From a candidate division NC10 bacterium CSP1-5 (GTDB lineage: Bacteria > Methylomirabilota > Methylomirabilia > Methylomirabilales > CSP1-5), in NCBI GenBank assembly GCA_001443495.1, contig LDXR01000006.1, positions 62,001-126,000 of the forward strand: a stretch of DNA of 64,000 bases. Direction: 5' to 3'. The notes under the pieces were generated by a model. It was not told the DNA's origin. It did no database searches and was given only the letters and a program-made list of their open reading frames with translations. A program made the translations under genes and the position numbers. Positions 1 to 10,893 of the stretch are shown here, piece after piece; within the stretch, counting starts at the first letter, position 1, and the number at the start of each line of letters is the position of its first letter.

Positions 1-492
1 GTGACCGATTCCAAGCTGCTGAGTGAAGAGCGGCGCGAAGGGCTCTACCAGCAGATCGTGGACGAGGCCCTGGCGGTGGCCATAGGGATCGTGGAGGTCC
101 CCATCATTGAGCTGCGGAATATTCTCCAGGCGACGCTCCTGGCCATGGAGCGGGCCGTGGCGGAACTCAGGGTAGCCCCCGACGGGATCGTCGTCGACGG
201 GCTGGCCGTTCCCCAGGTTGAACCGACCGTCTTTCCCGTGCCCCGAGGCGATCTCCAGTGTCCGTCTGTCGGTGCCGCCTCCATCGTGGCCAAGGTGACC
301 CGAGACCGGATGATGAGAGAGTATCACCAGACGTATCCAGTCTACGGCTTCGATCGGCACAAGGGATACGGCACGGAGGCGCATCTTCGCGCGATCGCAG
401 AGCACGGGCTGAGCCCTATCCATCGGCGGACCTTCGCGCGGGTCCGGCAGATCCCGCTTCCCCTGGTGGCGGCGGGGAGGCAGCGGTGCTAG
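1..492 (+). CDS. rnhB: Ribonuclease HII, 5'-truncated by window edge
   Basis: RNase HII cleaves the RNA strand of RNA-DNA hybrids and removes single ribonucleotides from DNA. The visible 163 residues hold the family blocks DSKLLSEERR (residues 3-12), IVVDGLAVP with a metal-binding Asp, and SIVAKVTRDRMM (about 94-105), followed by GYGTEAHL. The family normally begins about 45 residues earlier with a GxDExGRG active-site motif; that part lies outside the window, so the GTG at base 1 is not the real start. The stop overlaps the start of yraN, so the genes are co-transcribed, an arrangement common for rnhB and yraN. Confidence 0.93.
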   Translation: MTDSKLLSEERREGLYQQIVDEALAVAIGIVEVPIIELRNILQATLLAMERAVAELRVAPDGIVVDGLAVPQVEPTVFPVPRGDLQCPSVGAASIVAKVTRDRMMREYHQTYPVYGFDRHKGYGTEAHLRAIAEHGLSPIHRRTFARVRQIPLPLVAAGRQRC

Positions 493-7070: not shown

Positions 7071-7351
7071 CCTCTTGGAAGGGAGAGGCTGACGCTGGTG
7101 TGACAACTTTGCAGGGTCGACCCGACCGTCTGTCACACTGCCCTCACCTTCAGGGTTCGCACCTTCTATGGATCGGTTTCCCACAGGACATTCGGCCCGA
7201 TTCGTAGAAGGAATAGTACAGGGTCATTGGCCTGTTTATCCTGATAAATCAATAGGTTGCGATCATTTCCTCAACAATTGGTCTGCAGATTGCAGGACAA
7301 CTTGTCATGGCCCTGTGGAAGGGTCGATTTCGAGGGCAGTCGGAAAGGGCA
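7071..7351. other. Non-coding gap before the PilZ gene
   Basis: I see no gene here. The only clear element is a perfect AT-rich palindrome, TTTATC-CT-GATAAA, at 7235-7248, about 100 bp before the PilZ gene start; it could be an operator or part of a promoter. Confidence 0.4.
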
Positions 7352-7786
7352 ATGATGGACGACCGTGACGAATTGACGCAACTCGAAACAGTGGCACTCA
7401 CCGATGTTGGCGAAGATGCTGGGCTGCTACACGAAACGAACGGAGGTAGACGGCGTTATCGCCGGTGGGTCATCCGGGGCGGCCTGAGCGGGTGCATCGA
7501 CGCGGCGCATGGGGCCTCGTTCGTCAATATCAGCCTGGGCGGGGCCCTGATCGAGCACTCGAGCATGATCCGGCCAGGGAGCATCGCGTTCCTGACCGTT
7601 GCCTTCCAAGGGCAAGAGGCGGGGCTGAAGTGCCGGGTGGTCCGCTCAGAGGTCCATCGCTACGGCGTCAGGCCTACCGAGGACAGACACCTCGTCTATC
7701 GGTCTGGTCTTGAGTTCGTGGACACCTCCGAGGCGTCCCTGCGAGTCATCGACAAAACCATCGAATCCTTGAAAGTCGCGGCCTAG
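7352..7786 (+). CDS. PilZ-domain protein (probable c-di-GMP receptor)
   Basis: The protein of about 144 residues carries one PilZ domain in its C-terminal two thirds. The c-di-GMP signature is the pair RRRYRRW (about residues 34-40) and NISLGG (about 60-65), matching RxxxR and (D/N)xSxxG. The ATG at 7352 is preferred because GGAAAGGG lies at normal spacing in front of it; a start at 7307 is possible but lacks a ribosome site. No transmembrane segment or output domain is visible. It may tune the neighbouring surface-protein genes, but that is only inferred from position. Confidence 0.75.
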   Translation: MMDDRDELTQLETVALTDVGEDAGLLHETNGGRRRYRRWVIRGGLSGCIDAAHGASFVNISLGGALIEHSSMIRPGSIAFLTVAFQGQEAGLKCRVVRSEVHRYGVRPTEDRHLVYRSGLEFVDTSEASLRVIDKTIESLKVAA

Positions 7787-7788
7787 TC

Positions 7789-8331
7789 TTAGGCGACCGG
7801 TTTACATAAGCCGATTGTGCGAAGAGCGGGCCTCTCTCTCACCGAGTCGGACCAATGCGTCCAACTGAGCCACAGCCCGAGGACCGCCAGGATCAGGAAA
7901 CCCTCCCACATGACAGAGTGGGCGAAGTTGAAGGCGGCCGGATTATGCGCGCCGAGGTAGAACAGGTGCGCGAGGCGCGTCAGGTTGAGCGCAATCAAGA
8001 GGGGCACGCCGACGACCAGTCCGACGAGCTTTCGTCGCCAGCGTCCGGGATAGGCCAGGATGGCCGTCGTGAGGAAGGCAACCGGCAAGAATCCGGTGCA
8101 GCGGTAGTAGATCTCGTAGGCAAAGCCGCTCGGGTGGCTGACCACGGTCGCCACCCGGGTCGCCTCCATTCCTAACCAGTGAAGCAATGCGAGCGTCGCC
8201 CGTGCCGTCCACATCGTCACAGGGGCAAGGGGCGCCCCGAGAACGTCCTCACGATACGTGAGCAGGGCGACGCCCGCAAATCCCACCATCACCGCGACGA
8301 AACGGAGATTCAGTTGCCTGGTCACGTGCAT
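7789..8331 (-). CDS. Exosortase/archaeosortase family transpeptidase, small (XrtH-like)
   Basis: This 180-residue multi-pass membrane protein has the three exosortase catalytic residues: Cys78 in YYRCTGFLP, Arg119 in LNLTRLAHL and His138 in FAHSVMWE. Exosortases cut a C-terminal sorting signal and move the protein to a surface anchor. The single-domain size resembles exosortase H, which handles IPTLxxWG-type tails. It starts 15 bp after the subtilase stop with a CAGGAG site 6 bp before the ATG, so the two form an operon. The subtilase tail (VPDLSLIG, hydrophobic helix, RRRSR) is the obvious substrate. Confidence 0.82.
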   Translation of the reverse strand: MHVTRQLNLRFVAVMVGFAGVALLTYREDVLGAPLAPVTMWTARATLALLHWLGMEATRVATVVSHPSGFAYEIYYRCTGFLPVAFLTTAILAYPGRWRRKLVGLVVGVPLLIALNLTRLAHLFYLGAHNPAAFNFAHSVMWEGFLILAVLGLWLSWTHWSDSVRERPALRTIGLCKPVA

Positions 8332-8346
8332 GGGATACTCCTGAGC

Positions 8347-10170
8347 CTACTCCTCCGCCAGCCGCGACCGCCTGCGAAGTACCCCGAACAGCAGAACAGA
8401 GACCACGAGAACAGCAACCCCGATCAGCGACAGGTCAGGCACTCGCACAGGTGCGGAGGCGCTGCTCCCGTCGGCCCCCGCCGTTACCGTCGTGTTCCCT
8501 TGCGATTCGCCCCGCACCGTGACCTGTGCCCTCCCGCTCGAATCGGTCACAGCAGAGGCCGGCGAGACCGAGGCCACGCTGGGATTCGCGGTGCTGAATG
8601 TGACCGCCTTACCCGCCTGCGGCGCCGCGCCCAACGTGACCGTCGCCCTGGCGGTCGTCGTTTCGCCCTGGTCGAGCTCCCTGTCGGGGTCCAGCACCAG
8701 ACTCACGGCTAACTGGGGCCCTCCTCGGACCGCGCTCAGCAGACCTGCGCCACAGGGCTGGGGACACTGGCTCGATGTCCTGGGAAGGGCGTTGTTTCGG
8801 AGCTCGGCGGTGAGCTGCGCCGGGGTCAGCGTGGGGTTCTGGGCGAGATAGAGGGCGGCCACGCCCGCCACGTGGGGGGTCGCCATCGACGTGCCGTTAT
8901 AGCGAGCGTAGGTTCCAGCGTTGGGGTGAACCATGCTGAGCACCCCGTCGTTGTTGCCGTCCCCATCGTCGTCCCGCTGCACGTCCCCGCCGGGTGCCAT
9001 GATCTCGACTGTCGCGCCGAAATTCGAGTACCGGGTCACCAGGTGGCCGCGAGCGTCGCTCGCTGCCACGGTGATCACATTGTCGCAGCTCGCTGGGAAG
9101 ACCTGGGATGCATCCACCGCATCATTCCCGGCGGCCACCACGACTGCGGCGCCCGCCCCTACCGCATCATTGATCGCCGCCTGGGTGGACGGGGAGGCCG
9201 AGCAAGGATTGCCGGGCGGGGTACCGAGGCTCATGTTGATCACCCTGGCCGGCGTCGCATTTGCCGGCACGCCGGGGACGGCGAGGCCTGCGGCCCACCG
9301 GATGCCGTCGTTGATGTCGGCGATGGTGCCCCCGCATTTCCCCAGGACGCGCACGGCCTGAACCCGCACGGTCCAATTGGCGCCTGCGACCCCGACGCCG
9401 TTGTCGGTTCTTCCGACGCCGATGGTCCCGGCCACATGGGTCCCATGCCAGCTAGCGGGTTGGGCAGGATCGCCCGGGAAGCACTCGTCCGCGGCGACGG
9501 CATCGCCGGGGTCCGTGGGATCGTTGTCGCGACCGCTTCCGTCGTTGGCGATCGCCGGGTCGCTGATCATGTCAAAGCCGGCGATCAGGTTCGGGGATCC
9601 CGCGATGTCGGGATGGTTCGGGAGGACCCCGGTATCGATGACCGCCACAACGATGCTACTGCTTCCCGTGGTCGTGTCCCAGGCTCTCGGGAGGCTGATC
9701 CCGCCCGGAGACTGGCCGGTGCCGGTGCCGTTGTCGCGGTAGTGCCACTGCTCAGGAAAACGGGGATCGTTCGGGGTTCTCACGATGCGCAATATATAGT
9801 TCGGTTGCGCATACTGGACATTGGGGTCTGCGCGTAGTTGCCGGAGGACCTCCAGTGTGCGATCCCGCGCCTGGGTGGGCGAGAGGGTCTTTAGGGCGGT
9901 CGGCGGGATGCGGTAGAGCAGCTCGCCGCCGGATGTCACGCGCTTGCCGTCCTCGACTCCGAACCGCTTGAGGTCTGCGGGACCAAGGGTCCGGGCCGGC
10001 TTCATCTTCACGATGACCTCTCCAGGGACGAACTGGGCCTGAGGGGGGATGGTCCTGCGCTCAAGAAGCCTGCGGACCTCCTCCGGCGTGCGTTCCTGGG
10101 CCTCTCCAGGGAGAGTGCCGTAGGCCAAGCTTGCCAGGGCAACCATGACTGCCAGTAGAGAGGTGCTCAT
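8347..10170 (-). CDS. Secreted subtilisin-like (S8) protease with prodomain, Ig-like domain and C-terminal sorting tail
   Basis: This is a 607-residue secreted serine protease. Order: signal peptide (1-24), fervidolysin-type prodomain (about 45-128, beginning FVPGEVIVK and ending YAQPNYILRI), S8 catalytic domain (about 135-480) with Asp179 (VIDTGV), His242 (HGTHVAG), oxyanion Asn349 (AAGND) and Ser428 (GTSMATPHVAG), a Big-1/Ig-like domain (about 485-575), then a tripartite tail: VPDLSLIG (577-584), one transmembrane helix, and RRRSR. The tail suggests processing by the exosortase encoded next. The start has an AGGAGGA ribosome site. A gene encoding two prodomain copies diverges from it. Confidence 0.92.
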   Translation of the reverse strand: MSTSLLAVMVALASLAYGTLPGEAQERTPEEVRRLLERRTIPPQAQFVPGEVIVKMKPARTLGPADLKRFGVEDGKRVTSGGELLYRIPPTALKTLSPTQARDRTLEVLRQLRADPNVQYAQPNYILRIVRTPNDPRFPEQWHYRDNGTGTGQSPGGISLPRAWDTTTGSSSIVVAVIDTGVLPNHPDIAGSPNLIAGFDMISDPAIANDGSGRDNDPTDPGDAVAADECFPGDPAQPASWHGTHVAGTIGVGRTDNGVGVAGANWTVRVQAVRVLGKCGGTIADINDGIRWAAGLAVPGVPANATPARVINMSLGTPPGNPCSASPSTQAAINDAVGAGAAVVVAAGNDAVDASQVFPASCDNVITVAASDARGHLVTRYSNFGATVEIMAPGGDVQRDDDGDGNNDGVLSMVHPNAGTYARYNGTSMATPHVAGVAALYLAQNPTLTPAQLTAELRNNALPRTSSQCPQPCGAGLLSAVRGGPQLAVSLVLDPDRELDQGETTTARATVTLGAAPQAGKAVTFSTANPSVASVSPASAVTDSSGRAQVTVRGESQGNTTVTAGADGSSASAPVRVPDLSLIGVAVLVVSVLLFGVLRRRSRLAEE

Positions 10171-10248
10171 TGCTTCCTCCTTCCGCTCTTGATAAGCTAT
10201 TCGATGCCGAGGCCGCTTTTGATTGCGGTAGATATTGAGGGCAAGGTA
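10171..10248. promoter_or_regulatory. Divergent promoter region between subtilase and prodomain-repeat gene
   Basis: This 78-bp gap must hold the signals for both divergent genes, including AGGAGGA for the protease and GAGGGCAAGG for the other gene. It is short enough for shared control. I do not see a confident -35/-10 pair. Confidence 0.4.
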
Positions 10249-10893
10249 ATGACTATTTTGCTCGGTCTCGTGCTTCCAGGCATCCTCCTCGGGACCTCAC
10301 CGGTGTCATCGCCTCGGTTTGTCCCCGGCGAGGTCCTCGTCAAGTTCGTTCCTGGATCGGACGGAGGCGCCGCCGTCATGCAAGCCAGTCGCGTCAGCCC
10401 TCCGGACCTAGGCGCGTTGGCGCAGGTGATCGACCGCTTACAGGCCAAGGTCAATATCCCTCTCAGGGCAAAGCAGGTGACGGGCGGCCAATGGGTCCTG
10501 TTGTCTGTCGATGGGGAAAAGCTGACAGATCAACTTCTCGAGAAACTCCGCGGGCGGGAAAGCGTCGCGGAGGTCCAACCCAGCGCCGGGAAACCCGAAG
10601 CCCATGTGAGCGTCTCGTTGCCGAAAAAGCTCGTCATCAGGTTCTCACCGGGCAGCGCAGAATCCCAGGCGGTCGCACGAAAGCTGGCAGATCCCAACGA
10701 CATGGGCTTTTCTCGCCTCCTCCGCGATCTGGAAAAGGCGGTTGGCCTACCCTTACAGGGTGAGGTCGATGAAGACGCCACGGCTGTTGTGCAGATCGAT
10801 CTTGCGGCCCTCACCCTGAAGCTCTCCGAGCAACTCAAGGCCCTGGCCGATGTCGAGTCGGCCCAGCCGAACTACATCTTGAGGATTCAGTAA
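10249..10893 (+). CDS. Secreted tandem subtilase-prodomain protein without catalytic domain (candidate protease inhibitor/chaperone)
   Basis: The 214-residue protein has a signal peptide (MTILLGLVLPGILLGTSP) and two copies of the fervidolysin-like prodomain fold: about residues 22-112 (RFVPGEVLVKF to VAEVQPSAG) and about 122-214 (KKLVIRFSPGS to ESAQPNYILRIQ). Its last residues, AQPNYILRI, are identical to the end of the prodomain in the divergent subtilase, where the catalytic domain would begin; here the protein stops. S8 prodomains act as folding chaperones and tight inhibitors of their protease, so this is a good candidate for a trans-acting inhibitor or foldase. ATG 10249 is chosen over earlier starts (10189, 10204) for its ribosome site and signal peptide. 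Confidence 0.72.
   Translation: MTILLGLVLPGILLGTSPVSSPRFVPGEVLVKFVPGSDGGAAVMQASRVSPPDLGALAQVIDRLQAKVNIPLRAKQVTGGQWVLLSVDGEKLTDQLLEKLRGRESVAEVQPSAGKPEAHVSVSLPKKLVIRFSPGSAESQAVARKLADPNDMGFSRLLRDLEKAVGLPLQGEVDEDATAVVQIDLAALTLKLSEQLKALADVESAQPNYILRIQ

Follow-up and report, generated by a model that had tools for sequence, protein, structure and literature searches.

An exosortase, a tailed subtilase and a double prodomain-like candidate inhibitor form a conserved cassette in an NC10 genus

What would a stand-alone prodomain-like protein do beside a subtilase and an exosortase? The question is raised by three genes in the window, the 64,000-nucleotide stretch of DNA analyzed here (contig C6, 62001-126000), which belongs to the 2.77-Mb, 40-contig draft genome of candidate division NC10 bacterium CSP1-5. 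An exosortase gene and an S8 protease gene are separated by 15 bp (8332-8346), and a divergent gene encodes the third protein, here called DPP (double prodomain-like protein). The 15-bp and 78-bp gaps between the three genes agree with those given by the first-pass annotation, which had proposed a protease anchored or released by a dedicated exosortase and held in check by DPP. For DPP, a start codon at TTG 10189 was dropped in favor of ATG 10249, which has a conserved AGGG upstream. Promoter and terminator scans returned no matches. The features of the locus are collected in Table 1.

Table 1. Genes, domains and signals of the cassette, in window coordinates
Feature	Position	Strand	Basis or remark
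XrtH-type exosortase, 180 aa	7789-8331	-	TIGR04177, PF09721, invariant C78/R119/H138
Secreted S8 protease, 607 aa	8347-10170	-	PF00082, PF22148; Big_1 below cut-off
Protease domain order		-	Signal peptide, prodomain, catalytic domain, Ig-like domain, sorting signal
Protease C-terminal sorting signal, VPDLSLIG + transmembrane helix + RRRSR	8350-8442	-	Invariant motif columns
Protease Ig-like (Big_1-type) domain, residues 483-576	8443-8724	-	Big_1 34.3 bits, cut-off 34.9
Protease catalytic domain, residues 131-482, D179/H242/S428	8725-9780	-	PF00082, solved relatives
Protease prodomain, residues 43-130, end AQPNYILRIV	9781-10044	-	PF22148; mature N-termini of relatives
Putative divergent promoter region, protease/DPP, 78 bp	10171-10248	.	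Spacing identical in second cassette
DPP, secreted, 214 aa	10249-10893	+	PF22148 in two stretches, AlphaFold pLDDT 83.4
DPP hydrophobic leader, residues 1-17, likely signal peptide	10249-10299	+	Hydropathy 1.87, residues 1-19
DPP predicted outer domain, first part, residues 18-88, strand-helix-strand-strand of copy 1, FVPGEVLVKF	10300-10512	+	
DPP predicted inner domain, residues 89-184, order circularly permuted: last helix and strand of copy 1, then first part of copy 2	10513-10800	+	S6 permutant matches; less conserved
DPP predicted outer domain, second part, residues 185-214, last helix and strand of copy 2, AQPNYILRIQ	10801-10890	+	

The intact three-gene set was found at four loci. Two are in the host genome, where a second complete cassette with identical gene order and orientation lies approximately 75 kb from the first (C6:144.8-147.9 kb) and again has 78 bp between the DPP and protease genes; two congeners, G001 and G002, carry one full set apiece. 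In total, the exosortase and protease co-occur in 3/7 congeneric genomes, full-length DPP is present in the same three, and no intact exosortase, protease or DPP gene was found outside a complete set among these seven genomes. All three genes are absent from G003, G004, and G006, although absence from the less complete congeners is weak evidence because the genomes are drafts. G005 retains a deletion scar (L035:1-452, on the contig shared with L033) in which the end of a PilZ gene is joined to the 3′ end of DPP; the last 180 bp of the DPP gene are kept at 88% identity, while ∼2.9 kb, comprising the exosortase, the protease, and most of DPP, is gone. Among the 95 genomes sampled from the phylum, DPP was matched in four, all within the host genus, and a scan of the genomes for additional DPP-like proteins returned only ordinary subtilases outside it (L036, L037); the cassette is known from draft genomes of this single genus. 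A PF22148 match in G006 was discarded, as it sits in an apparent hslV gene. Purifying selection acts on each of the three genes (dN/dS 0.15-0.39), and the possibility that DPP is non-coding was rejected on this basis. The three genes are a real unit rather than a coincidence, and the expectation that DPP would be conserved beside such subtilases was borne out both in relatives and in the second copy in the host genome.

Genes of the PilZ type adjoin the cassette. One in the window (7307-7786) ends 2 bp from the exosortase gene, and a receiver-PilZ-like gene in G001 (L028:5551-6330) overlaps the exosortase end on the shared strand. Cyclic-di-GMP possibly controls the cassette through such neighbors.

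Most of what is known about exosortases comes from genomics, and few have defined substrates. The enzyme in the window was confirmed as an XrtH-sized exosortase with all three catalytic residues: it scored 101 bits against the exosortase H model TIGR04177 (cut-off, 86), 55 bits against TIGR04178 (cut-off, 23), and 39 bits against PF09721, and its catalytic Cys, Arg, and His (C78, R119, and H138) are invariant among four homologues. Exosortases of this kind in relatives (L017, L018, L020, L021, L023, and L025, representing family f6 plus one f7 genome) adjoin a protein of ∼240 to 260 aa, which has a CPCGSG zinc-binding-like tail in several of them; the window cassette is without this partner.

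The neighboring gene was likewise upheld as encoding a secreted S8 protease whose last 31 residues resemble a sorting signal. The protein scored 181 bits against Peptidase_S8 (PF00082), the triad of its catalytic domain (D179, H242, and S428) is invariant, and its prodomain matched PF22148 at 29 bits, above the gathering score. The mature chains of its closest solved relatives (7w2a, 5yl7, and AprV2) start at the residue aligned with R131, so the prodomain probably ends in NYILRIV. The AlphaFold model of the full protease is poor (pLDDT 48), although the Ig-like domain within it is all-beta with high pLDDT. The final 31 residues consist of VPDLSLIG, a helix (580-598, hydropathy 2.88), and a basic tail; the protease thus combines secretion with the motif, transmembrane helix, and basic end that generally mark a sorting signal. 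Across the four proteases, 8/8 VPDLSLIG columns are invariant, compared with 3/23 other tail columns (p 2e-5). The tails align in register with IPTL_CTERM (TIGR04174) at scores under its cut-off of 20.5 bits (14.4 and 18.5 for the two tails in the host genome; best genome match, 16.9).

The host genome has exactly two exosortases and two VPDLSLIG sites, adjacent in 2/2 cases, and a search of that genome found the sites confined to the cassette proteases. The dedicated pairing of exosortase and protease, as suggested in the first-pass annotation, is therefore well supported. In family f6, which is another family of the order, exosortases lie beside canonical GIPTLSEWA-tailed proteins, and an IPTL-CTERM domain is predicted in the Methylomirabilis lanthanidiphila S-layer protein (PMC8671808). 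Judged from these sequences, the VPDLSLIG motif appears to be a private version of the IPTL-CTERM signal, because the tails match that model in register below its cut-off and relatives possess canonical tails. The cassette resembles the XrtH/IPTL-CTERM system (TIGR04177/TIGR04174) in that its enzyme passes the XrtH cut-off and its tail follows the pattern V/I-P-x-L-S-x-x-G, helix, basic end, whereas it differs in having VPDLSLIG rather than IPTLSEWG, a tail below the cut-off, and one substrate per enzyme. Another dedicated sorting system is rhombosortase with a single GlyGly-CTERM target (PMC3237569). There, too, one enzyme has one adjacent target, and the targets include S8/S53 proteases; rhombosortase is, however, of a different enzyme class from exosortase, and the passages of that paper considered here do not mention an inhibitor gene.

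The third gene is the unusual member. The call of a signal peptide in DPP is less certain because the leader lacks a charged or basic n-region; past the leader, DPP consists of prodomain-like sequence only and has no protease domain. Two stretches matched PF22148 (29.4 bits; gathering score, 21), a family of fervidolysin-type prodomains to which both DPP and the protease prodomain score above gathering and which is named for N-terminal protease prodomains, unlike DPP with its missing protease domain. The two halves of DPP align with each other (hhalign E 1e-8; z 6.5 to 10.9 against shuffles), and chance similarity between them was rejected on these values. Half 1 resembles the protease prodomain chiefly at the first strand (FVPGEVLVKF) and half 2 chiefly near the end, where the closing AQPNYILRI is, as first reported, identical to the prodomain ending. 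An outer composite of residues 18-88 and 185-214 matched the protease prodomain with 43% identity (hhalign E 6e-14, z 10 to 15), whereas the complementary composite was near chance in 3/4 cases (z 0.6 to 1.5) and reached 5.2 in the fourth. Conservation follows the same division, with 47/100 positions invariant among the four DPPs in the outer composite and 24/96 in the inner part (p 0.0017). DPP terminates in NYILRIQ-stop, compared with the predicted prodomain end NYILRIV, and across cassettes its end falls 0 to 2 residues from the position at which, in the alignment, the mature chains of solved relatives begin.

A search of PDB sequences using the DPP profile returned chance matches only. Preference of a DPP for its own partner was clear only for the second cassette (93 versus 71 to 81); because one DPP alone clearly prefers its own protease, these alignments are only suggestive of co-evolution. 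The G002 DPP (L029:5930-6619) shares 70% DNA identity with the window DPP at a dS of 1.10, and the protease and exosortase of that genome are far less divergent from those of the window (dS 0.44 and 0.41), as though replacement or diversification had affected only the DPP gene.

The DPP fold was predicted by AlphaFold as a monomer from a four-sequence alignment. The model (pLDDT 83.4) runs strand-helices-strand-strand-helix-strand, twice. It matched the subtilase prodomains of PCSK9 (Z 6.5), PC1/3 (Z 6.3), and ProteinT (Z 6.0), values no higher than those of unrelated ferredoxin-like RRM domains (Z up to 7.3) and in a range (Z < 8) also reached by unrelated folds. As for the alignment ranges, single-domain structures, prodomains included, align 67 to 87 residues scattered over DPP 19..214, and circular permutants of ribosomal protein S6 match at ∼89..184. 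From these ranges, we infer a swapped arrangement in which one prodomain would be rebuilt from both copies around a diverged inner domain. The sequence comparison of the composites agrees independently with this model-derived swap. A Foldseek search with the whole model gave no match at E ≤ 0.001, which the predicted two-domain swapped build may explain. The claim that DPP is made of two prodomain copies stands at the level of sequence (PF22148; hhalign E 1e-8), but the predicted fold is exchanged between the copies. The first-pass annotation would have been refuted by a predicted structure lacking the prodomain fold; the model instead predicts that fold, though as a composite of the halves and not as one prodomain per half.

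Once cleaved, an S8 prodomain keeps its C-terminus in the substrate cleft and inhibits the protease. Since DPP shares the prodomain's end, the same cleft-occupying inhibition is expected of it, and since it ends at the prodomain cut point, its free C-terminus should occupy the cleft. We therefore consider that DPP is probably, though by no means certainly, an inhibitor that acts in trans, in the manner of a cleavage product, on a surface protease processed by its dedicated exosortase. Prodomain mimics provide a precedent for inhibition of subtilases (PMC6993865), and the Aeromonas sobria protein ORF2 provides one for a bacterial inhibitor that is encoded next to its protease and inserts its C-terminus into the cleft (PMC5638518). 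The protease would be exported via its signal peptide and fold with the aid of its own prodomain, and the VPDLSLIG-helix-basic tail would halt it in the membrane; the neighboring XrtH-type exosortase would then cut the tail and pass the protease on to the cell surface. DPP would be exported separately. Its outer part, drawn from the start of copy 1 and the end of copy 2, would copy the protease prodomain, with the C-terminus acting in the cleft as a slowly cleaved, product-like inhibitor, and the inner domain would probably brace the outer shape or give a second contact. In this manner, DPP may restrain the mature protease, whether periplasmic or at the surface, until degradation or dilution of DPP lifts the block.

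S8 prodomains also serve as foldases, and DPP could instead act chiefly as an external chaperone in maturation of the protease, with inhibition secondary. An adjacent gene, a product that is probably secreted, and a C-terminus shaped for the active-site cleft would suit such a helper, and ORF2 of Aeromonas sobria performs both jobs: it is necessary for maturation of the protease ASP, and its C-terminus, placed at the ASP active site, inhibits with an IC50 of 84 nM (PMC5638518). Both ASP-ORF2 and the cassette comprise a bacterial S8 protease and a partner, in the cassette a putative inhibitor, encoded by a neighboring gene. The cassette protease, however, retains a complete and conserved prodomain above the PF22148 cut-off, so a second foldase would be unneeded and dependence of the ORF2 kind is argued against; moreover, the DPP gene is divergent and not co-transcribed with the protease gene. 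We regard a primarily chaperone role as unlikely.

Less likely still is a substrate-like sensor or decoy, which the protease would cut and whose loss or fragments would signal its activity elsewhere. Prodomain-like sensors may exist in the phylum, since G033 and G024 fuse a prodomain-like domain to a membrane anti-sigma factor beside a subtilase, yet no receptor, sigma, or anti-sigma gene was recognized inside any of the four cassettes, and DPP has no membrane domain apart from its leader. At these two loci (L071:3548-7861 in G033; L072:5913-10232 in G024), an ECF sigma factor and a zinc-finger anti-sigma factor adjoin a subtilase with an internal prodomain, and the anti-sigma C-terminal domain, past a hydrophobic stretch, scored 24.1 and 17.8 bits, respectively, against PF22148 (cut-off, 21). 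The arrangement is a possible route from the state of a subtilase to transcription. Finally, that only the exosortase and protease are paired, with DPP an unrelated or vestigial prodomain duplicate along for the ride, is very improbable: the greater dS of the G002 DPP would fit, but every DPP pair has dN/dS of 0.20 to 0.30, the gene is present at all four intact loci, and DPP follows the protease prodomain in its tail and first strand.

Returning to DPP as a product-like inhibitor, the predicted swap allows a bolder proposal, which we hold tentatively and find somewhat less probable than inhibition itself. A duplicated prodomain with its halves swapped in one chain would be a new build of bacterial subtilase inhibitor, in which a faithful mimic is kept open with a second domain, of circularly permuted order, inside it; this inner domain would either lock the mimic against cleavage or give it a second target, and the whole would have evolved as the safety of an exosortase-processed surface protease.

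Stand-alone propeptide mimics include POIA1, the yeast proteinase B inhibitor, Arabidopsis SPI-1, TgMIC5, and Plasmodium SUB1-ProM; the gene for the last lies next to subtilase genes, and SUB1-ProM inhibits one of those subtilases (PMC6993865). DPP has in common with them that it is a small separate gene product with no protease domain, and it may share their subtilase prodomain fold, as the AlphaFold model predicts. The mimics named are eukaryotic, from fungi, yeast, plants, and parasites, and are described as a single propeptide-like unit (PMC6993865), whereas DPP is bacterial, duplicated with a predicted swap, and clearly similar in sequence to its cognate prodomain. No bacterial stand-alone prodomain inhibitor was found in the literature searched, which covered subscription papers to a limited extent. 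The kind of each component is known; new, as far as found, are its occurrence in a bacterium, the duplication with its predicted swap, and the association with a dedicated exosortase.

If the proposal is true, DPP would give bacteria an equivalent of the stand-alone prodomain inhibitors so far reported from fungi, plants, and parasites (PMC6993865), and one with physical linkage both to the protease it targets and to the enzyme responsible for placing that protease on the surface. The cassette gives each exosortase one candidate substrate next door, with a measurable activity, and the swapped build of DPP suggests how a duplicated, short-lived prodomain may become a durable inhibitor.
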